Of a DNA stretch of 40,822 nucleotides, positions 16,226 to 24,289 are shown one piece after another. The stretch comes from Pseudacidovorax intermedius (GTDB lineage: Bacteria > Pseudomonadota > Gammaproteobacteria > Burkholderiales > Burkholderiaceae_C), in assembly GCF_001476815.1 (NCBI RefSeq), contig NZ_LDSL01000134.1, forward strand, positions 1 through 40,822. The letters run 5' to 3'. How positions within the stretch are numbered: position 1 is the first letter of the stretch; every line of letters starts with the position of its first letter. Under the pieces are notes generated by a model. That model saw only the letters and a program-made list of their open reading frames with translations, was not told where the DNA came from and did no database searches. Position numbers and translations under genes: made by a program.

Positions 16226-17476
16226 TCAGTCGGCGTGCTCGTACACGTACAGGCCCACGTCGATGCGGCCCTGGCGGAAGCCCGCTTCGCAGTAGGCCAG
16301 GTAGTACTCCCACAACCGGTGGAAGCTCTCGTCGAAGCCCAGGGGGGCGATGGCGGGCCACTGGGCCATGAAGCGCCGGCGCCATTCGGCCAGCGTGAGC
16401 GCATAGCTCTGGCCGAAGCGCTGGACCTCGGCCAGGCGCAGGCCGACGCGCTCGCCGTGCTCGCGCATCAGCGTGGGCGTGGGCAGCATGCCGCCGGGGA
16501 AGATGAAGCGCTGGATGAAGTCCGCGCCGGCGCGGTAGCGGGGGAAGGCGTCTTCGTCGATGGTGATGGCCTGCACGACGATCCGGCCGCCGGCGGCCAG
16601 CCGGTCCTTCAGCACCTGGAAGTAGGTCGGCCACCAGGCCTCGCCCACGGCCTCGATCATCTCGATGGACACGATGCGGTCGAAGTGGCCCGGCACGTCG
16701 CGGTAGTCCTGCAGGCGCAGGTCGATGCGCGGCTGCATGCCGGCGGCCTCGGCGCGCCCCTGGGCGCAGCGCAGCTGCTCGGTGGACAGGGTGAGGCCGG
16801 TGACCTGCGCGCCCGCTTCGGCCATGCGCAGCGCCAGGCCGCCCCAGCCGCAGCCGATCTCCAACACGGACTGCGCGGGGTCGATCCTCAGCAGCTCGAC
16901 GATGCGCGCGAGCTTGCGGTCCTGCGCGGCTTCCAGCGTGTCGTCGCTGCGGGCATAGATGGCGCTGGAATACTGCAGGCCCGGGTCGAGCCAGCGTTCG
17001 TAGAAGGCATTGCCCAGGTCGTAGTGGAAGGCGATGTTGTCGCGGCTGCCGGCGCGCGTGTTGTCGCGCCGGCGGTGCGCGAGGCGGGCCAGCCACCGCG
17101 CGAGCCCGGTGCCTTCGACGCTGCCCTGCCAGGCGGCTTCGTTCAGGGCGCCGAGTTCCAGCAGGGCCGGCAGGTCGGGGGTGGACCAGTCGCCGTCGCG
17201 GTAGGACGTGGCCAGGCCGAGATCGCCCTGTGCCAGCAGGCGCAGCAGCGGCCGCCAGCGGTGCAGGCGCAGCAGGGCCTGCGGGCCGGGCTGGCCGCCG
17301 CGGGCCTCCAGGCGGGCACCGTGCGGCAGCTCGACCACCAGATGGCCGGCCCGCAGCCGGGCCAGCAGCGGTTGCAGCAGCCGGCGGGCCAGAAGGCTGG
17401 CAACCGGCCCCTTGCCACGCGGGCGCGGGCTTGGCGTCAGGTCGCAGTCGCAGGCGGGATCGAGCGGTCGGGTCAT
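16226..17476 (-). CDS. cfa: Cyclopropane-fatty-acyl-phospholipid synthase
   Basis: 416 residues. An SAM-dependent enzyme that methylenates unsaturated acyl chains of membrane phospholipids. An N-terminal variable domain (1-140) is followed by the CFA catalytic domain: NIAFHYDLGNAFYERWLD (about 147-164), the SAM motif VLEIGCGWGGLALRM (204-218), SIEMIEAVGEAWWPTYF with the conserved glutamate, and FIQRFIFPGGMLPT. Its ATG overlaps the stop of the DUF1365 gene (ATGA), which itself overlaps the FAD protein gene, forming a tight three-gene operon. The order FAD protein, DUF1365, CFA synthase is a recurrent conserved trio. A sigma-E-like promoter precedes the operon at 19742-19769. Confidence 0.92.
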   Translation of the reverse strand: MTRPLDPACDCDLTPSPRPRGKGPVASLLARRLLQPLLARLRAGHLVVELPHGARLEARGGQPGPQALLRLHRWRPLLRLLAQGDLGLATSYRDGDWSTPDLPALLELGALNEAAWQGSVEGTGLARWLARLAHRRRDNTRAGSRDNIAFHYDLGNAFYERWLDPGLQYSSAIYARSDDTLEAAQDRKLARIVELLRIDPAQSVLEIGCGWGGLALRMAEAGAQVTGLTLSTEQLRCAQGRAEAAGMQPRIDLRLQDYRDVPGHFDRIVSIEMIEAVGEAWWPTYFQVLKDRLAAGGRIVVQAITIDEDAFPRYRAGADFIQRFIFPGGMLPTPTLMREHGERVGLRLAEVQRFGQSYALTLAEWRRRFMAQWPAIAPLGFDESFHRLWEYYLAYCEAGFRQGRIDVGLYVYEHAD

Positions 17477-18318
17477 GGCGTCGTGGGCGGCAGGGTGGCG
17501 GAAGGGCCGGCGGATGCAGGGGCTGGGCCGGCATTGTGAATGCTGACGGCATGGCCGGGCGGCGCGGGCCGCGGCACCAGGCCGACACCCTTGAGCCACA
17601 GGCGCAGCGCCTCCCAGTGGATGGCGCCGATCACCTTGAGCGTGAGCAGCGGATGGCTGACGAAGGCGGCCAGCAGCGCCCGGTCGTCCAGCGGCCGCGC
17701 CGTGGCGTCCAGGCGCGCCACCAGCAGCGGGCCCTGGGCATCCACCGCATCCACGCCCACCGACAGCGGACTGTGGGCCGGCGCATCGGCGGCCGGCGGC
17801 CGGATGCGGAAGCGGTAATGCATGTCCAGCCCCATGAAGGGCGACACGTACAGCGCCTTGTCGCAGCGCTGCTCGACGCGCTCGCCCGTCCCCGGTTCCA
17901 CCGGCAGCAGGTAGCTGTGCCGCTGGCCGAAGGTGTTGTTGACCTCGTAGAGGATGGCCCGCAGCCCGCCGCCCGGCGCATCGCAGAAGTACACGCTCAG
18001 CGGGTTGAAGGCGTAGCCCAGAATGCGCGGCATGGTGAGCAGCCGGATGCGCCCGCCAACGGGCAGGCCGGCCGCAATCAGCTGGGCTTCCACGTGGGCA
18101 CGCGGGCCTTCGGCGTCGCCCGCGCCGTAGTCGCACCAGCGCAGGCTGAACAGGTTGAAGCGGCCGAGGGAGAAAAGCCGGCTGCGCTGCGACAGCGCTT
18201 CCACCCGGTCGATGTCCAGCAGCAGCGAATAGACCCGGTAGGCCAGGCGGTGGCGCCGCGGACGCATCCGCTGGTGCATCACGCGGCCGCTGTAGAGCGC
18301 CTGTCCGTCGCCGCTCAT
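17473..18318 (-). CDS. DUF1365 protein of the CFA operon
   Basis: 281 residues, a DUF1365 (COG3496-type) protein. The start ALYSGRVMHQRMRPRRHRLAYRV and the middle RILGYAFNPLSVYFC with YEVNNTFGQRHSYLLPV are typical. The function is unknown; it is nearly always next to an FAD-dependent amine-oxidase-like protein and a CFA synthase, so a role in acyl-chain modification or transfer is inferred. It overlaps both neighbours by four bases. The C-terminal 35 residues are Pro/Ala-rich and probably disordered. Confidence 0.88.
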   Translation of the reverse strand: MSGDGQALYSGRVMHQRMRPRRHRLAYRVYSLLLDIDRVEALSQRSRLFSLGRFNLFSLRWCDYGAGDAEGPRAHVEAQLIAAGLPVGGRIRLLTMPRILGYAFNPLSVYFCDAPGGGLRAILYEVNNTFGQRHSYLLPVEPGTGERVEQRCDKALYVSPFMGLDMHYRFRIRPPAADAPAHSPLSVGVDAVDAQGPLLVARLDATARPLDDRALLAAFVSHPLLTLKVIGAIHWEALRLWLKGVGLVPRPAPPGHAVSIHNAGPAPASAGPSATLPPTTP

Positions 18319-19718
18319 GGGACCGTCGTGCCGAGGGTGCCGGCCGCTGCAGCAGGGCTGGCGCCGAGGTGGATGCGGCCCGACTCGTTGGCCACCTGCC
18401 AGGGGCGCCGCACGCCGCCCAGGGCCTCGGCCACGGCCAGACCGGACTGCAGCCCGTCCTCGTGGAAGCCCGAGCCGAAGTAGGCGCCGCAGAACCACAC
18501 GCGCCGCTGGCCCTGCAGCGACCACAGCGAACGCTGGGCCTCGATGGCCCGGGCATCGAACAGCGGGTGTTCGTAGACCTGGCTGCGGATCAGGTGGTCG
18601 CCGTGCGGCTCCACCGTGGGGTTGAGCGTGACGAACAGCGGCGTCTTCTCGTCGATGCCCTGCAGCCGGTTCATCCAGTAGGTGACGCAGGGCGCGGCAT
18701 CGGGGTTGCGGCTGTCGGCCAGGTAGTTCCAGCTGGCCCACACGCCGCGGCGCCTGGGCATCAGCGCGGGGTCACTGTGCAGCACGGTGTGGTTGCGCGA
18801 ATACTGGAAGGCGCCGAGCAGGCGGCGCTCGTCGGCGCTCGCGTCGCCGAGCAGGCCCAGCGCCTGGTCGGCATGGGCGCCCACCACGACGGCGTCGAAG
18901 CGCTCGGGCCACCAGCCGCCAGCGGTGCGCAGCCAGGCGCCCTCGTCGTCGCGGCGGACGGCGATTACCGGCTGGTCCAGGTGCAGGCGGTCCGCGAAGC
19001 CGGCCACCAGCCGCTGCACATAGCTGCGGCTGCCGCCCTGCACGGTGCGCCACACGGGGCGCCCATCGACCTGCAGCAGGTGATGGTTCTGGCAGAAGCG
19101 GATGAAGGCCTCGGTGGGATAGCGGCCGATCTGCCCGGCCGGCGTGGACCAGATGGCGGCGGCCATCGGATAGAGGTGGTCTTCGCGGAAGGCGGCGCCG
19201 TAGCCGTGCGCGTCCAGAAACTCCTCCAGGGGCTGCAGGCCGGCGGCGGCGGCCTGGCCAGGGGCCTCGCGGTAGAAGCGCATTAGGTCGCGCAGCATGG
19301 CCCAGAAGCGGGGCCGAACCAGATTGCGCGGCTGGGCGAACAGGCCGCGCAGATCGGTGCCGGCATATTCGAGCGCGCCGCCGTCGCGGCTGACCGCAAA
19401 GGACATGTCGGAGGCCACGGTGGGCACGCCCAGGTGTGCGAACAGGGCCGTGAGGTTGGGGTAGGACGGTTCGTTGTAGACGATGAAGCCCGTGTCCACC
19501 GGCACGCGCTGGCCACCCGGCACGGGCGCGTCCACCGTGTGGCTGTGGCCGCCGGGGCGCGGCTCGGTCTCGAACACCGTCACCCGGTGGCGCTGGCCAA
19601 GCAGCCAGGCGGCCGAGAGCCCGGCGATGCCGGCGCCGACCACCGCGATGTTCAGCGGCGCGCCGGCGTGGGCCGCATCGGGCGGCAGAGGGTGGGCGAC
19701 GGGGACAAGGTGGCTCAT
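18315..19718 (-). CDS. FAD-dependent amine-oxidase-like flavoprotein (COG2907 type)
   Basis: 467 residues. A hydrophilic 22-residue leader is followed by a dinucleotide-binding motif, VVGAGIAGLSAAWLL (27-41, Gly28, Gly30, Gly33), with the second ETEPRPGGHSHT stretch, as in amine oxidase/desaturase flavoproteins. The C-terminal FAD motif WFCGAYFGSGFHEDGLQSGL is present. This type is found with DUF1365 and CFA synthase; oxidation or desaturation of a modified fatty acid is plausible but unproved. GGAGT lies just before the ATG. The gene starts an operon, divergent from rpoE with a 120-base gap carrying two opposed promoters. Confidence 0.9.
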   Translation of the reverse strand: MSHLVPVAHPLPPDAAHAGAPLNIAVVGAGIAGLSAAWLLGQRHRVTVFETEPRPGGHSHTVDAPVPGGQRVPVDTGFIVYNEPSYPNLTALFAHLGVPTVASDMSFAVSRDGGALEYAGTDLRGLFAQPRNLVRPRFWAMLRDLMRFYREAPGQAAAAGLQPLEEFLDAHGYGAAFREDHLYPMAAAIWSTPAGQIGRYPTEAFIRFCQNHHLLQVDGRPVWRTVQGGSRSYVQRLVAGFADRLHLDQPVIAVRRDDEGAWLRTAGGWWPERFDAVVVGAHADQALGLLGDASADERRLLGAFQYSRNHTVLHSDPALMPRRRGVWASWNYLADSRNPDAAPCVTYWMNRLQGIDEKTPLFVTLNPTVEPHGDHLIRSQVYEHPLFDARAIEAQRSLWSLQGQRRVWFCGAYFGSGFHEDGLQSGLAVAEALGGVRRPWQVANESGRIHLGASPAAAAGTLGTTVP

Positions 19719-19741
19719 CGTGACTCCAGGTGCTCGATGCC

Positions 19742-19769
19742 TATACGCGCCGCGGAGCGGCTTGGATTC
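19742..19769 (-). promoter_or_regulatory. Predicted ECF sigma promoter of the FAD/DUF1365/CFA operon
   Basis: On the minus strand GAATCCAA (-35, around 19769-19762) is followed by N13 and GCGTATAGG, with TATA at 19745-19742. The spacing between GAATCC and TATA is 18 bases. It shares ATCCAA-N13-GCGTA(A/T)AGG with the sites before rpoE and before the second operon. The leader to the ATG at 19718 would be about 17 bases and contains the Shine-Dalgarno. Confidence 0.8.
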
Positions 19770-19801
19770 GCGCCGTCCTACATGCGATGCGGCGGGCGCC
19801 G

Positions 19802-19829
19802 TGATCCAATCCGCGGCCGGCAGCGTAAA
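19802..19829 (+). promoter_or_regulatory. Predicted autoregulatory ECF sigma promoter of rpoE-chrR
   Basis: TGATCC at 19802-19807, then 18 bases, then TAAA at 19826-19829 within GCGTAAAGG. This is the consensus form described for Rhodobacter sphaeroides RpoE-dependent promoters (TGATCC-N18-TAA). The -10 lies only 9 bases before the ATG at 19839, so the message is nearly leaderless or translation begins at a GTG further in. Confidence 0.85.
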
Positions 19830-19838
19830 GGCTCCATC

Positions 19839-20495
19839 ATGGAAGCCCGGCCCCTGCCATCGAATACACCCCGGCCACGGACGCGTCCGCTGCCCGTGTC
19901 GATCGTGAACCTCGCCGACGCCCAAGCCATACTGCCGACCTCTGCCGAACTGTGCGATCTGGTGCAGGCGGTGGCCGAACGCCAGGACAGAACGGCCTTC
20001 GCCGTGCTGTTCAAGCATTTCGCGCCACGGATCAAGACCTACCTGATGCGCGCAGGCGCCGAGGCCGAGCTGGCCGAGGACCTGGTGCAGGAAACCATGG
20101 TCATGCTCTGGCGCAAGGCGGCGCTGTTCGACCCCCGCCAGGCGGGGGTGTCGACCTGGGTGTTCACCATTGCCCGCAACCTGCGCGTCGACCGCTTCCG
20201 CCGCCAGGGCGGCGCCGTGGAAATGGTGACGACGGAGGCCGCCGGCCTGGACGCCATCGCAGAAGACGCACCCGCGCCCGACGAGCGCCTGCACAGCCTG
20301 CGCTGCGAAGGCCGGCTGCGTGAGGCGCTGCGGCGCCTGCCCGCCGACCAGTTGCGGGTGCTGCACCTGTCCTATTTCGAAGAACAGCCGCATTCACGCA
20401 TCGCCCAGGATCTGGGCATTCCCCTCGGCACCGTCAAGTCGCGCGTGCGGCTGGCGGTGGCCCATCTCCGCAAGTTGTTGGATGGCCTGGCATGA
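19839..20495 (+). CDS. rpoE: ECF sigma factor, RpoE of the ChrR-controlled type
   Basis: 218 residues from the ATG. Sigma region 2 spans about 50-120 (AEDLVQETMVMLWRKA, GVSTWVFTIARNLRVDRFRR) and region 4 about 155-215 (LPADQLRVLHLSYFEEQPHS, LGIPLGTVKSRVRLA). There is no region 3, as in ECF factors. It overlaps the chrR gene (ATGA), so sigma and anti-sigma are made together. The ATG at 19839 leaves almost no leader after the predicted promoter; in-frame GTG codons at 19896 and 19905 would give about 199 or 196 residues and a more normal size. This family responds to singlet oxygen in Rhodobacter. Confidence 0.93.
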   Translation: MEARPLPSNTPRPRTRPLPVSIVNLADAQAILPTSAELCDLVQAVAERQDRTAFAVLFKHFAPRIKTYLMRAGAEAELAEDLVQETMVMLWRKAALFDPRQAGVSTWVFTIARNLRVDRFRRQGGAVEMVTTEAAGLDAIAEDAPAPDERLHSLRCEGRLREALRRLPADQLRVLHLSYFEEQPHSRIAQDLGIPLGTVKSRVRLAVAHLRKLLDGLA

Positions 20496-21154
20496 CGGCA
20501 ATTCATCATCATCCGTGCGACGACCTCCTCGTCGCACTGGCCGCCGGCACGCTCGCGGCTGGACCGGCCGCCGTCGTGGCGAGCCACGTCGAAGGTTGCC
20601 CGGCCTGTGCGAACCGTCTTGCCGAACTGGAAGCTCTCGGCGGCGCGTTGCTTGAAGAACTGCCCGGCGCGGACCTGGCCCCGGAGGCCCTGGTGAACAC
20701 CCTTGCCGCCATCGACGCGCTGCCCGTCACCGAGGCAGAGCGCGTGATTCGCACCGCGCGCCGGCCGGACCTGCCTGCCGGTGCCCGCTGGCCCAGGGCG
20801 CTGGCGGATTGCAGCGGCACGCCCTGGCGCTGGATCGGCCCGGGCATGCGCTGGAGCCGCCTGACGCTGCCCAGCGACCCGTCCGCCAACCTGTTCCTGC
20901 TGCGCATCGGCGCGGGCAAGTTCCTGCCGCCGCACACCCACAGTGAGCTGGAGTTGACCCAGGTGCTGTGGGGCAGCTTCCACGACGGCCGCGCTCTGTT
21001 CGGCCCGGGCGACTTCGATGCGGCGGACGGCCGTGTCCACCACCAGCCGGTGGTGGAACCCGGTTGCGAATGCATCTGCCTGGCGTCGGTGGACGGCCGC
21101 GTGGTGTTCGACAGCTTCCTGGCCCGCGCACTGGGGTCGATGGTCGGCATGTGA
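20492..21154 (+). CDS. chrR: ChrR-type zinc-binding anti-sigma factor with cupin domain
   Basis: 220 residues. The N-terminal anti-sigma domain has a zinc site: a histidine near the start (His5-His7) and His32-x3-Cys36-x2-Cys39 in SHVEGCPAC. The C-terminal cupin-like domain carries His148, His150, Glu154 and His184, with the same spacing as the second zinc site in Rhodobacter sphaeroides ChrR (141, 143, 147, 177). Both metal sites are therefore intact. It should bind and silence the adjacent sigma factor until singlet oxygen or organic peroxide triggers its turnover. A strong terminator follows. Confidence 0.95.
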   Translation: MTAIHHHPCDDLLVALAAGTLAAGPAAVVASHVEGCPACANRLAELEALGGALLEELPGADLAPEALVNTLAAIDALPVTEAERVIRTARRPDLPAGARWPRALADCSGTPWRWIGPGMRWSRLTLPSDPSANLFLLRIGAGKFLPPHTHSELELTQVLWGSFHDGRALFGPGDFDAADGRVHHQPVVEPGCECICLASVDGRVVFDSFLARALGSMVGM

Positions 21155-21200
21155 GTGCGTGGCCGGCACGCACGGGCTGGAGCCCGGCTGCCACCGATGC

Positions 21201-21238
21201 AAAAAAAACCGCGCGGCCAAGACCGCGCGGTTTTTTTC
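21201..21238. terminator. Bidirectional Rho-independent terminator between chrR and the DUF2177 gene
   Basis: CCGCGCGG at 21209-21216 and again at 21223-21230 form a stem with loop CCAAGA, flanked by eight A (21201-21208) and seven T (21231-21237). The symmetrical A/T tracts allow it to end both the chrR transcript and the convergent minus-strand operon. Confidence 0.95.
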
Positions 21239-21265
21239 TGCCAGCCCCTGGCTGGGGCGCGGCGC

Positions 21266-21682
21266 TCAGCCGCGCCAGGCCAGCGTCAGCCGCGTGGCCA
21301 CCGCCGAGGAGACGCCGGTCACGAACGCGCCCCAGGCCAGGTCGGCCAGCGTCACGGCCCAGGGCCACTGCTTGAGCGTCGCCTGGTTGGTCAGGTCGTA
21401 GGTCGCGTAGCAGATCAACCCGAGCAGCGCGCCCATGGCCAGCGCCTGCAGCGGCTTGCGGGCCTCCAGCGCCGGGCCGATGGCGAAGACCACCATGCCC
21501 ACCAGATACAGCAGGTAGAACAGCACGGCCGGTGCCACCGCGAAGCCGTCCGCCATCAGGTGGCCGATGGCCGGCCGGTAGAGCCGGGAGGCCATGGTGC
21601 CGAGCCAGATGGCATCCAGGCCGAGAAAGACGACGGCGGCGATGCCGTAGGCGGTGAGATAGTGGGCGAAGGGGAGGTTCAT
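21266..21682 (-). CDS. DUF2177 membrane protein
   Basis: 138 residues with four hydrophobic segments (about 9-28, 45-70, 80-98, 112-132), an inner-membrane protein of the DUF2177 family. The pattern FLGLDAIWLGTMASRLYRPAIGHLM and ICYATYDLTNQATLKQWPW is diagnostic. It is the last gene of the second minus-strand operon, 49 bases after the DUF6134 gene. DUF2177 proteins recur in ChrR-sigma regulons, but the biochemical role is unknown. Confidence 0.9.
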   Translation of the reverse strand: MNLPFAHYLTAYGIAAVVFLGLDAIWLGTMASRLYRPAIGHLMADGFAVAPAVLFYLLYLVGMVVFAIGPALEARKPLQALAMGALLGLICYATYDLTNQATLKQWPWAVTLADLAWGAFVTGVSSAVATRLTLAWRG

Positions 21683-21731
21683 GGTCGGAGCCGTTGAGGG
21701 GGCGAAGCGGACGAAGGGAGAGGGCGAAACT

Positions 21732-22382
21732 TCAGCGCAGGCGGTAGCTCAGCAGCCGGCCGCCTTCGAGCGTGCCGTCCAGGCCGACCCAGTTGCCGCT
21801 GGCGTCGTACCACAGGTCGATGCGCTGCTTGAGGGCCACGATGCGCCAGCGCTGGGCGGTCACGGCCTGACCGCGTACGTCGAGCGTGGCCGGCGGCAGG
21901 GGCTCGACGCGCACCGGTTCCAGCTTGCCCGTCTGCGCATTGAGCAGTTCGCGCTGCTGCAGCAGCGCACGGTTCCAGTAGGCGAAGCTCATGACGCAGC
22001 CGGCCAGCAGCGCATCGCCAGGTGGCAGGCGCACGGCCAGCTTGTCGCCGTTGTCGTCGGTCTCGGCCTGCAGCGTCTGCAGGCAGTCGCCCTGCCAGCG
22101 TTCCTGGGCGCGGTGGCGGTAGCGGTAGACGGTGATGCCGAGCAGCTTAACGTCGAAGCGGGCCTCGCTGCGCAGCAGGCGGATGCCGTCGGGCTGGGTG
22201 TCGAGCGCGAAGACGTGCTCGCCGATGGGCTTGCCGTCCAGCGCGGCGTCGAAGTTCCAGATTTGCCGCGGCTCAGCGGCGGCGGCCGGCAGTGCCCAGG
22301 CTGCGAACGCCAGCACGGCGATGACGTGCCGCGTGCGCCTGCCCGAAGCCGTTCGCCCTGCCGCCAGCCACCGGTCGCTCAT
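21732..22382 (-). CDS. Secreted DUF6134-like protein
   Basis: 216 residues with an N-terminal basic region and a hydrophobic segment (about 19-36, cleavage plausible after AAAAE), so periplasmic. The mature part begins with IWNFDAALDGKPIGEHVFAL and is beta-rich, resembling the DUF6134/DUF3108 group. Its ATG overlaps the DUF1295 stop (ATGA). Family function is unknown; in this operon it may handle a lipid product in the periplasm, by context only. Confidence 0.75.
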   Translation of the reverse strand: MSDRWLAAGRTASGRRTRHVIAVLAFAAWALPAAAAEPRQIWNFDAALDGKPIGEHVFALDTQPDGIRLLRSEARFDVKLLGITVYRYRHRAQERWQGDCLQTLQAETDDNGDKLAVRLPPGDALLAGCVMSFAYWNRALLQQRELLNAQTGKLEPVRVEPLPPATLDVRGQAVTAQRWRIVALKQRIDLWYDASGNWVGLDGTLEGGRLLSYRLR

Positions 22383-23167
22383 GCGCCGGCCTTTCTTGGC
22401 GGCCAGGGCACGAAGGCGCTGGTCCGCGCCACGTAGTCGCGGTAAGCGGGCCGGCGTGCGTGCAGGTCTTTTTCCAGCAGCGTCACGCCCGACACGCGCA
22501 GCAGCATGAAGGTGATCAGCATTGGCGAGACGAAACACCAGGCGGCGCCCAGGCCCCCGGCCTCCAGCGTCATCAGGGCCAGGCCCCACCACACGCAGCT
22601 CTCGCCGAAGTAGTTGGGATGCCGGGTATAGCGCCACAGGCCGCGGTCCATCACCGCCTTGCTGCCGCGGTGCCGGGCACGGAAGCTGGCCATCTGCGCA
22701 TCGGCCACGGCCTCGAAGACGATGCCGAACAGCGCCAGCGCGGCGCCCAGCAGGTCGATGGCACCGAAAGGCCGGGCGCCGGCCAGTCCGGCCAGCAACG
22801 GTGCGGAAATGATCCAGCCCAGCAGCCACTGCAGGCCGAAGACGATGAACAGGCTCTTCCAGGCGAAGGCGGGGCCGTGGCGTTCGCGCATCTCGGCGTA
22901 GCGGCGGTCTTCGCCATGGCCCCAGTTGCGCCAGCTGATGTAGACGCACAGGCGCAGGGCCCAGGCGCAGGCCAAGACCAGCATCGCGCCGCGCCGCGTG
23001 GGGTCGGCGGCCGGCAGGGCCCAGGCATAGGCCAGCGCGGGCAGGGTGATGAGCCAGGGCCAGATGCGGTCGGCCAGGCTGGCGTCGCGCTGGCGCAGGC
23101 TGGCGAGCCAGCCGGCCAAGGCCAGCGGCAGCGACACGAGCAGGCCGAAGAGGGCGGCATGCAGCAT
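22379..23167 (-). CDS. DUF1295 membrane protein, steroid 5-alpha-reductase-like
   Basis: 262 residues with about six transmembrane segments. The C-terminal motif RGLWRYTRHPNYFGE followed by WWGLALMTL, and the ending AYRDYVARTSAFVPWPP, define the DUF1295 (COG3752) family, related to steroid 5-alpha reductases and isoprenylcysteine methyltransferase-like membrane enzymes. Reduction of a double bond in a lipid is a reasonable family-based guess. It starts 3 bases after the CFA-like gene and overlaps the next gene by four bases. Confidence 0.9.
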   Translation of the reverse strand: MLHAALFGLLVSLPLALAGWLASLRQRDASLADRIWPWLITLPALAYAWALPAADPTRRGAMLVLACAWALRLCVYISWRNWGHGEDRRYAEMRERHGPAFAWKSLFIVFGLQWLLGWIISAPLLAGLAGARPFGAIDLLGAALALFGIVFEAVADAQMASFRARHRGSKAVMDRGLWRYTRHPNYFGESCVWWGLALMTLEAGGLGAAWCFVSPMLITFMLLRVSGVTLLEKDLHARRPAYRDYVARTSAFVPWPPRKAGA

Positions 23168-23170
23168 GGC

Positions 23171-24217
23171 TCAGCGCTTTTCGAACAGGTAGTGGCCGAC
23201 CCACCAGCGCTGGCCGCCGTCCCAGCCGAACAGCTCTTCGACCGACAGAAAAAACAGGCGCCAGCGCATCCACCAGCGGTCGGCCTCGTTGGCGCCATAG
23301 GCAGCCGCGATCACGGGCAGCAGTTCGGCGCGGCGTGCGTCCATGTTGTCCAGCCAGGCGCGGGCGGTGCGCTGGTAGTGGCGGCCATCCCAGCGCCAGC
23401 GGTCGAGCAGGCGCAGGTCGTCCTGGCACTGCATCGCCAGGTCGTCGCTGGGCATCATGCCGCCGGCGAAGAAGTAGCGCGTCATCCAGTCGCTGGCGTC
23501 ACGCTCGACGAAGGGGTAGGGCGCTTCCTTGTGCACGAAGACGTGCATGAAGAAGCGGCCGCCTGGCGCCAGCCAGCCGGCGACGCGGCCGAAGGCGGCC
23601 GCCCAGTTGCGCAGGTGCTCGAACATCTCGACCGAGACGATGCGGTCGAAGCGCTCGTCGATGTCGAAGGCATTGATGTCGCAGGTGATGACGCGCAGGT
23701 TGGCCAGCTTGCGGCGCGCCGCTTCGCCTTCGATGTAGGCGCGCTGCGAGTGCGAGTTGGAGACGACGGTGATCGGGCTGTTCGGATAGTGCGCCGCCAT
23801 CCACAGCGAGAGCGAGCCCCAGCCGCAGCCCAGCTCCAGAATCTTCTGGCCGTCCACCAGGCCGGCGCGCTCGCAGGTGGTGGCCAGGGCGGCGGCCTCG
23901 GCGGCGCCCAGGTCCTCGACGCCGGGCCCCCATTCGCAGCAGCTGTACTTGCGGTGCGGGCCGAGCACGCCGCCGAAGAATTCGGCGGGCACCTCGTAGT
24001 GCTGCTCGTTGGCCTTCTCGGGCAGCGGCGCCAGCGGGGCAGCACGCATGGCGGTGAGGAAGTCGCGCGTCTGCCGGGCCACGGCCTCGGCGTCGCCGCA
24101 CTGCAGTTCGTCGATGCGCTCGCGCAGCAGGCGGCGGATGCCGAGGCGGATCACGCTGTCGGGCACGTAGCCCTGTTCGACCCAGCGGATGGCGGTGGCG
24201 GTGTTGTCTCGGGGCAT
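23171..24217 (-). CDS. Second CFA-like SAM-dependent methyltransferase
   Basis: 348 residues. The SAM motif is ILELGCGWGSLSLWM (126-140). The preceding NEQHYEVPAEFF and YSCCEWGPGVEDL, and the later SVEMFEHLRNW and MTRYFFAGGMMPSDD, place it in the CFA synthase superfamily. It differs clearly from the first CFA gene and is closer in form to the group that includes methyltransferases other than true cyclopropane synthases (for example coclaurine N-methyltransferase-like and Rhodobacter fatty-acid methylase-like proteins). It leads the second operon and has a sigma-E-like promoter at 24262-24289. A methyl-branched or furan fatty acid step is a hypothesis. Confidence 0.88.
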   Translation of the reverse strand: MPRDNTATAIRWVEQGYVPDSVIRLGIRRLLRERIDELQCGDAEAVARQTRDFLTAMRAAPLAPLPEKANEQHYEVPAEFFGGVLGPHRKYSCCEWGPGVEDLGAAEAAALATTCERAGLVDGQKILELGCGWGSLSLWMAAHYPNSPITVVSNSHSQRAYIEGEAARRKLANLRVITCDINAFDIDERFDRIVSVEMFEHLRNWAAAFGRVAGWLAPGGRFFMHVFVHKEAPYPFVERDASDWMTRYFFAGGMMPSDDLAMQCQDDLRLLDRWRWDGRHYQRTARAWLDNMDARRAELLPVIAAAYGANEADRWWMRWRLFFLSVEELFGWDGGQRWWVGHYLFEKR

Positions 24218-24261
24218 GGGGTCGGTCCTGGCGGGCGGGTGATCGGTGCGGGTCTGCCACC

Positions 24262-24289
24262 TTTACGCAGCGCAGGGGCTTTTGGATTT
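24262..24289 (-). promoter_or_regulatory. Predicted ECF sigma promoter of the second operon
   Basis: On the minus strand AAATCCAA (-35, 24289-24282), N13, GCGTAAAGG with TAAA at 24265-24262; AAATCC to TAAA spacing is 18 bases. It is the third copy of ATCCAA-N13-GCGTA(A/T)AGG in the region. The leader to the ATG at 24217 is about 38 bases and contains AGGA. The site lies in the divergent gap with mltB. Confidence 0.8.

Follow-up and report, generated by a model that had tools for sequence, protein, structure and literature searches.

The stretch of DNA analysed here, 40,822 nucleotides of Pseudacidovorax intermedius (assembly GCF_001476815.1, contig NZ_LDSL01000134.1, positions 1 to 40,822) and called the window below, raises the question which genes are controlled by one sigma factor and what these genes provide for the cell. 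The window encodes the extracytoplasmic function (ECF) sigma factor RpoE and its anti-sigma factor ChrR between two operons. The first one comprises genes for a flavin adenine dinucleotide (FAD)-dependent protein, a DUF1365 protein and a cyclopropane fatty acid (CFA) synthase-like methyltransferase. The second one is headed by a gene for a methyltransferase similar to coclaurine N-methyltransferase (CNMT), followed by genes for DUF1295, DUF6134 and DUF2177 proteins. The genes very probably form an autoregulated island of the ECF11 (sigmaE-ChrR) type, in which promoters of one form would drive rpoE, an ufa-type operon and a FufM/CNMT-like operon. Genes for DUF2878, TspO and KatG, which lie outside the island, would extend this regulon.

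A preliminary description of this DNA had reported three copies of the pattern ATCCAA-N13-GCGTA(A/T)AGG. Exactly three were recovered in the window, at 19740-19767 (reverse strand), 19804-19831 (forward strand) and 24260-24287 (reverse strand). The same three copies were found when up to three mismatches were allowed, and none of 100 shuffled windows attained three matches. The scan of the whole genome that had been proposed was carried out on 5,546,132 bases in 295 contigs; with N13 fixed, the exact pattern was detected at the three window sites only, and the reversed control gave no match. With up to two mismatches, five matches (two extra sites) were obtained, compared with two for the reversed control. 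The distance of 18 bases from the TGATCC position to TA, described for all three copies, was confirmed by measurement; the spacer between the six-base -35 box and CGTA comprises 16 bases in each copy. As described, the full TGATCC is present at the rpoE copy, the only one of the three, and GAATCC and AAATCC stand at the FAD operon and the second operon. The copies have only the boxes in common, and their spacers diverge. The predicted promoters are:

19802 to 19831, forward strand: ECF11 promoter of rpoE-chrR; TGATCC 19802-19807, N16, CGTA 19824-19827
19740 to 19769, reverse strand: ECF11 promoter of the FAD-DUF1365-CFA operon; GAATCC(AA) 19769-19764, CGTA 19747-19744; TG-less, AA-type -35
24260 to 24289, reverse strand: ECF11 promoter of the second operon; AAATCC(AAAA) 24289-24284, CGTA 24267-24264

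Related loci were examined regarding the conservation of these sites. ChrR was searched in 150 genomes of the family, and 20 had a match: 15 were strong, the own genome included, and five were weak (L021-L025) and left out of the strong set and of the counts. Within the genus, ChrR was found in seven of 15 genomes. The window and 21 fetched regions gave a set of 22 loci with 444,536 bases, in which ATCC-N16-CGTA occurred 64 times, compared with 0-9 occurrences for each of 13 other spacings (10 to 23). A site, defined for the counts per gene as ATC(C/T)-N16-CGTA, was present before rpoE in 21 of 22 loci, before the FAD gene in 18 of 20 and before the CNMT-like gene at the head of the second operon in 19 of 19. 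In the two exceptions, L042 and L045, the CNMT-like and DUF1295 genes are followed in line by the FAD gene, which hence probably uses the promoter of the second operon. The gene order FAD-DUF1365-CFA < > rpoE-chrR > < DUF2177-DUF6134-DUF1295-CNMT-like is widely kept in the set. By this comparative evidence, the predicted promoters and the regulon are real.

The motif is that of an ECF11 (sigmaE-ChrR) promoter. In the literature, ECF11 promoters are given as TGATCC(N15)GCGTA for Rhodobacter sphaeroides (PMC5036791), TGATCC-N16-CGTA for Pseudomonas syringae (PMC5507510), TGATCC with CGTAAT or CGTATT for Shewanella (PMC4336711) and TGATC-N16-18-CGTAW for Vibrio cholerae (PMC5241685). The rpoE copy matches the R. 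sphaeroides consensus exactly, and thus GCG is canonical for ECF11. Formerly, GCG before and GG after the -10 box had been regarded as features of this lineage. For GCG this was ruled out by the published consensus, which includes it (PMC5036791), and by the wide occurrence of G before CGTA in the relatives (17 of 21 rpoE sites, 11 of 18 FAD sites and 14 of 19 second-operon sites). Nor is GG after the -10 box a common feature of the sites in the 22 loci: the extension TA[AT]AGG was found at the FAD and rpoE promoters of the window and five loci of the genus only, and at the second operon of the window only.

Two kinds of -35 box were distinguished. TG precedes ATCC in 20 of 21 rpoE sites and in none of the 18 FAD operon sites, all of which carry AA after ATCC. 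Over all 58 sites, AA was present in 27 of 27 boxes without TG and in 14 of 31 with TG (Fisher p 1.4e-6); after removal of five close loci of the genus the counts were 17 of 17 and 9 of 26 (p 1.2e-5), and since the rows have common ancestry these p values are not true probabilities. The effective -35 looks like TGATCCAA with either end dispensable. This explains why the originally described pattern began at ATCCAA. Neither TG nor AA is present at the DUF2878 site of the own genome (GCATCCAG), which lies outside the 58. The rule of TG before or AA after ATCC sharpens how such promoters should be scanned.

The regulatory genes between the two operons are:

19839 to 20495, forward strand: rpoE, ECF sigma factor; Pfam Sigma70_r2/r4; best Protein Data Bank (PDB) match R. 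sphaeroides RpoE 2q1z_A (E 5.4e-36)
20492 to 21154, forward strand: chrR, anti-sigma factor with zinc-finger-like N domain and cupin C domain; TIGR02451; 2z2s_B (E 8.6e-34)

The attributes of an ECF11 system come together here. The sigma factor has regions 2 and 4 with R. sphaeroides RpoE as nearest solved relative, a ChrR-type anti-sigma factor with zinc-finger-like and cupin domains adjoins it, TGATCC-N16-CGTA stands upstream of the sigma gene itself, and furan fatty acid genes, identified by domain and order only, lie behind the same promoter. ChrR scored 190.2 bits against TIGR02451 (cut-off 124.5); the narrower equivalog NF051881 was not reached (159.2 against 300). Residues 3-210 align with R. 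sphaeroides ChrR (2Z2S) at the E value listed; in this alignment the His/Cys pairs match in the N-terminal domain, as does HxHxxxE...H in the cupin domain. We take these residues to be the zinc ligands. On this assumption the metal-ligand positions are kept, in agreement with the intact zinc sites claimed at first. The two genes overlap by 4 nt. The start codon of rpoE (ATG 19839) sits 11 nt after CGTA; hence, its mRNA may be nearly leaderless.

In this Pseudacidovorax-like betaproteobacterium, ChrR would keep RpoE inactive, and singlet oxygen or organic hydroperoxide would free RpoE from it, as suggested by the R. sphaeroides system. The freed sigma factor would steer RNA polymerase to ATCC-N16-CGTA sites in which ATCC is preceded by TG or followed by AA. 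The predicted targets are its own gene, ufaD-ufaO-ufaM and the second operon (FufM/CNMT-like, DUF1295, DUF6134 and DUF2177), and similarly built promoters before DUF2878, tspO and katG, outside the island, would widen the regulon. The furan fatty acids from both operons would probably be protective.

Nine genes with named Pfam domains had been assigned to one sigma factor. The gene content was confirmed, and self-control together with control of both operons is strongly supported by the footprint (21/22, 18/20 and 19/19) and the linkage to ChrR. The number of nine is incomplete: DUF2878 and tspO belong to the predicted regulon and katG probably does. In the own genome ATCCAA-N14-CGTA had four matches, the fourth located 144 nt before the katG start, and TGATCC-N16-CGTA had two, the second located 69 nt before the tspO start:

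G000:C231:21727-21750 (L059): katG site, GAATCCAAA-N13-CGTA, TG-less and of the AA type as at the FAD operon
G000:C45:10586-10611 (L055): tspO site, TGATCC-N16-CGTAAGG, overlapping the end of the preceding open frame

These two further matches of the strict patterns belong to neither photolyase nor msrAB, the genes suggested before, for which no aimed genome-wide search was made; one photolyase query had no match in the 22 loci. The katG site is known from the own genome and two relatives (L135 and L145), which carry a TGATCC-type box instead. For P. syringae, katG is reported as an ECF11 target, too (PMC5507510). The tspO site is kept in five relatives (L235-L239), and the DUF2878 site is present in the same six genomes. 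Of the 15 genomes of the genus, these six and no others had a match for either gene; G151, the seventh with ChrR, had none. Since the six genomes resemble each other most, this co-occurrence may reflect simple descent. In all six (L234, L241-L245) the start codon of DUF2878 follows 8 nt after CGTA, and thus its mRNA is probably leaderless.

Across the genus, ATCCAA-N14-CGTA had 33 matches in the seven genomes with ChrR and four in the eight without (reversed control: three in all 15), and TGATCC-N16-CGTA had 39 and 15 (reversed control: six). Among these matches (37 + 54), 40 stretches were read; many are intragenic and look like chance. A dienelactone-hydrolase-like gene stands behind the motif in five relatives (one protein checked with Pfam), as do a MHYT-GGDEF gene and a nitroreductase gene, for which two stretches each were fetched and one protein each was checked. 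Furthermore, an AA-type motif precedes related small lipoprotein-like genes of G151 and G150 (L126 and L129). No ChrR was found in G150; another ECF sigma factor may use a similar box there.

The first operon consists of:

18315 to 19718, reverse strand: FAD-dependent amine-oxidase-like protein, ufaD candidate; Pfam Amino_oxidase/NAD_binding_8; order as in Rhodopseudomonas palustris RPA2571-2569 (PMC7380195)
17473 to 18318, reverse strand: DUF1365 protein, ufaO candidate (furan-forming oxygenase); PF07103 (E 1.4e-76)
16226 to 17476, reverse strand: CFA-synthase-like methyltransferase, ufaM candidate; PF02353 (E 1.3e-81); best PDB match CFA synthase 6bqc (E 2.2e-52)

A putative FAD desaturase, DUF1365 oxygenase and CFA-type methylase are thus encoded together, with the domains and the order of ufaD-ufaO-ufaM. 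We take UfaD to be of the FAD type and UfaM of the CFA type, partly following PMC10940516. The CFA-like protein of the window is much closer to CFA synthase than to coclaurine N-methyltransferase 6gkv (E 1.2e-9). The products of the three ufa genes are described to convert vaccenoyl chains into furan fatty acids, the furan oxygen being derived from O2, and UfaO carries a DUF1365 domain (PMC7380195). In addition, furan fatty acid genes are reported within the core sigmaE-ChrR regulon and as required for ChrR turnover under singlet oxygen (PMC6852236). By homology, the first operon would make a mono-methyl furan fatty acid. A Foldseek search with the DUF1365 model had no match at E 0.001 or better.

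The second operon consists of:

23171 to 24217, reverse strand: CNMT-like S-adenosylmethionine-dependent methyltransferase, fufM candidate; best PDB match coclaurine N-methyltransferase 6gkv (E 5.1e-65)
22379 to 23167, reverse strand: DUF1295 membrane protein, steroid-5-alpha-reductase-like; PF06966 (E 1.7e-64); overlaps DUF6134 by 4 nt
21732 to 22382, reverse strand: DUF6134 protein with hydrophobic N-terminus; PF19630 (E 4.2e-44); beta-rich model, predicted local distance difference test score 87
21266 to 21682, reverse strand: DUF2177 membrane protein; PF09945 (E 1.3e-46)

The head of this operon had been called CFA-like, a label that was replaced. Its best match is coclaurine N-methyltransferase rather than CFA synthase 6bqc (E 1.7e-29), and a profile of its family gave 4.5e-90 and 1.2e-36 for the two enzymes. 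AT4G33110 (LIME1) of Arabidopsis is, we assume, CNMT-like. FufM of R. palustris, which makes dimethyl furan fatty acid, is 37.87% identical to AT4G33110 (PMC10940516). Via AT4G33110 and CNMT, the head protein can be placed in the family of FufM: it is of the CNMT/LIME1 type rather than a CFA synthase, as FufM presumably is.

For the accompanying proteins the searches gave less. DUF1295 had no match among PDB sequences up to E 1, and the NCBIfam search yielded no model hit for any of the window's four DUF proteins. The DUF6134 model showed a weak likeness to the lipid carriers LolA, LprG and MucB in Foldseek (best E 5.9e-4, template modelling score at most 0.50 among the matches listed). In Chlamydomonas, CFA2, CFA1, DUF1365, DUF2177 and DUF1295 genes are reported to need SAK1 for induction by singlet oxygen; CFA2 is Cre09.g398700, elsewhere in that paper the coclaurine N-methyltransferase CPLD27 (PMC4067076). 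Furan modification in this alga was under study as of 2021 (PMC8491031). As a further step, the second operon might add a second methyl group, and its DUF proteins might handle or traffic the lipid.

The spread of these genes was examined by a contig scan with the CNMT-like family. The best 80 of 583 loci were analysed, and all counts of the cassette derive from them; linkage was counted in those 60 of them that extend 6 kb or more downstream. There, the CNMT-like gene was linked to DUF1295 in 50 loci, FAD in 47, DUF1365 in 46, CFA in 46, DUF6134 in 39 and DUF2177 in 11. DUF2878 was near the CNMT-like gene in 53 of the best 80. Linked loci are labelled Gammaproteobacteria, Methylophilaceae, Nitrospira, Planctomycetes and Opitutia, among others. 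DUF6134 was not found in the Planctomycetes and Opitutia loci, and none of the best 80 is labelled Rhodopseudomonas. Among the 79 loci with enough upstream sequence, ATCC-N16-CGTA stands before the CNMT-like gene in all 13 with ChrR and in 6 of 66 without. The labels of these six are Variovorax, Pseudorhodoferax or Rhizobacter, and ChrR may lie in another part of their genomes; a looser pattern added one locus, L211, labelled Flavobacteriaceae.

LitR-like MerR genes were detected in 21 of the 67 loci without ChrR, the locus of the LitR query itself included (15 at 45% identity or more, six weak at 25-29%), and in none of the 13 with ChrR. In the 22 family loci one weak match was obtained (24% identity, L045, which has ChrR), and the window had no match for a LitR-type MerR/B12-binding regulator. 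LitR homologues are reported to induce ufaM by light in Pseudomonas (PMC9758184). With ChrR in some loci and LitR-like proteins in others, the same cassette seems to be connected to different sensors of light or singlet oxygen. In the Pseudomethylobacillus locus L189 (7315-9916), the cassette lies near an ECF sigma factor gene with an RskA-type anti-sigma factor and a B12-binding MerR gene, which may represent a third type of control.

Several observations weigh against one island for furan fatty acids under sigmaE-ChrR control. Two of the three window sites are without the TG of the -35 box, the rpoE-chrR pair of L047 (G069) has no site in front, and none is present in the roughly 315 nt of upstream sequence available for L162, a Rhizobacter locus with 70% identity. 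Distant phyla carry the cassette without ECF11; hence, lipid function and regulator are separable. In 7 of the 60 loci, the CNMT-like gene was accompanied by no FAD, DUF1365 or DUF1295 gene in the sequence examined. The links to UfaD, UfaO, UfaM and FufM are drawn from domains, gene order and published identity values, and FufM is placed in the CNMT type through AT4G33110, whose own membership is our assumption. The missing TG would also fit a control of the operons mainly by another regulator, a LitR-type MerR protein or a housekeeping sigma factor, with weak or relict ECF11-like boxes at both operons. The LitR-like genes of ChrR-less loci and the control of ufaM in Pseudomonas (PMC9758184) point in this direction, but such genes are absent from the 13 ChrR loci, apart from the weak match at L045 in the family set. 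Moreover, spacing and boxes are kept before the same genes although the spacer diverges, and because AA is present in 27 of 27 TG-less boxes, these look constrained and not decaying. Control mainly by another regulator is therefore improbable. A practically negligible probability is assigned to three copies arising by chance, or as a repeat from a recent duplication without promoter function. The exact 28-base pattern with both extensions was indeed found in this genome alone among the 150 of the family, a sample with one other member of the genus, which has no ChrR. The pattern also stands at rpoE of four further loci of the genus (L048, L049, L050 and L052), however, the spacers of the copies differ, and the boxes without extensions recur before the same genes in other genera. 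Uniqueness in the whole genome, the spacing control (64 versus 0-9) and the sites at the same genes in relatives rule such an origin out.

The function of the second operon is less certain than its promoter. The sites could be sigmaE-ChrR promoters with the operon outside furan synthesis: the methyltransferase would then methylate amines (a phospholipid head group or a small molecule), and the DUF proteins would serve other membrane repair. Among solved structures, N-methyltransferases of plants are nearest to the enzyme, E precedes [ML]FEH in both, and the seven loci lacking the partner genes fit as well. We consider this rather unlikely, since linkage of the CNMT-like gene with ufa-type genes extends over several phyla, FufM, related to AT4G33110 as quoted above, is a proven furan fatty acid methylase (PMC10940516), and the Chlamydomonas coclaurine N-methyltransferase gene is induced by singlet oxygen alongside CFA1, DUF1365, DUF2177 and DUF1295 (PMC4067076). 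We tentatively prefer a role in furan fatty acid synthesis, which seems quite possible: the CNMT-like protein with DUF1295, DUF6134, DUF2177 and DUF2878 would be the second half of a dimethyl furan fatty acid system, providing the second methyl group and lipid handling. The core (CNMT-like, DUF1295 and ufa genes) would be an old cassette, ranging from Planctomycetes, Opitutia and Nitrospira to Proteobacteria, wired to sigmaE-ChrR or LitR-type sensors, with families that recur in the green-algal response to singlet oxygen.

The island shares with R. sphaeroides sigmaE-ChrR the structural matches of RpoE and ChrR, the promoter, the site at the sigma gene and furan genes in the regulon. In contrast to that system, the lipid genes lie in one island with the sigma factor, and CNMT-like, DUF1295, DUF6134 and DUF2177 genes are added, with tspO, DUF2878 and katG as candidates. 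The three domain types and their order agree with UfaM-UfaD-UfaO of R. palustris (RPA2569-2571). With FufM (RPA0924), LIME1 and CPLD27 the second operon shares a CNMT-type methyltransferase tied to furan or singlet oxygen genes, the family membership here being derived through AT4G33110 and CNMT. In the window this gene stands in linkage with the sigma factor, whereas R. palustris fufM lies apart from ufaMOD by locus numbers. The LitR/PplR light regulon likewise controls ufaM in Pseudomonas putida and Pseudomonas mendocina, where the pmlR1 region also contains an FAD oxidoreductase gene (PMC9758184), but its regulator is a light regulator of the MerR family and not an ECF sigma factor.

The control system itself is of the known ECF11 type. 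What is new is the proposal that a CNMT/FufM-like enzyme and the four families DUF1295, DUF6134, DUF2177 and DUF2878 belong to furan fatty acid metabolism. In the literature found, no paper ties the second operon to an ECF11 promoter; the comparative regulon study of Dufour et al. (2008), which was not covered, may list some of the targets. The sigmaE-ChrR response of this betaproteobacterial lineage would gain a defined, testable regulon. Since most families of the island (CFA-type, DUF1365, CNMT-type, DUF1295 and DUF2177) are induced by singlet oxygen in Chlamydomonas (PMC4067076), a functional test in the bacterium would bear on algae and plants.

Some minor features of the region were noted. 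In the window (19740-19831) the rpoE and FAD promoters stand back to back with their -35 boxes 32 bp apart. In L041 only 5 bp separate these boxes, so that simultaneous binding of two polymerases is hardly possible there. The rpoE-chrR pair of L047 is the second one of G069, and no lipid cassette was present in the 19.9 kb examined. Between the convergent chrR and DUF2177 genes of the window, one further element was read by eye:

21202 to 21238, no strand assigned: probable bidirectional terminator, inverted repeat ACCGCGCGG...CCGCGCGGT with flanking A and T runs

In L050, L051 and L052 an insertion of about 5 kb between chrR and DUF2177 splits the island. It was rejected as an extension of the regulon; by eye, it contains a sigma-like open reading frame and a TonB-receptor-like gene instead.

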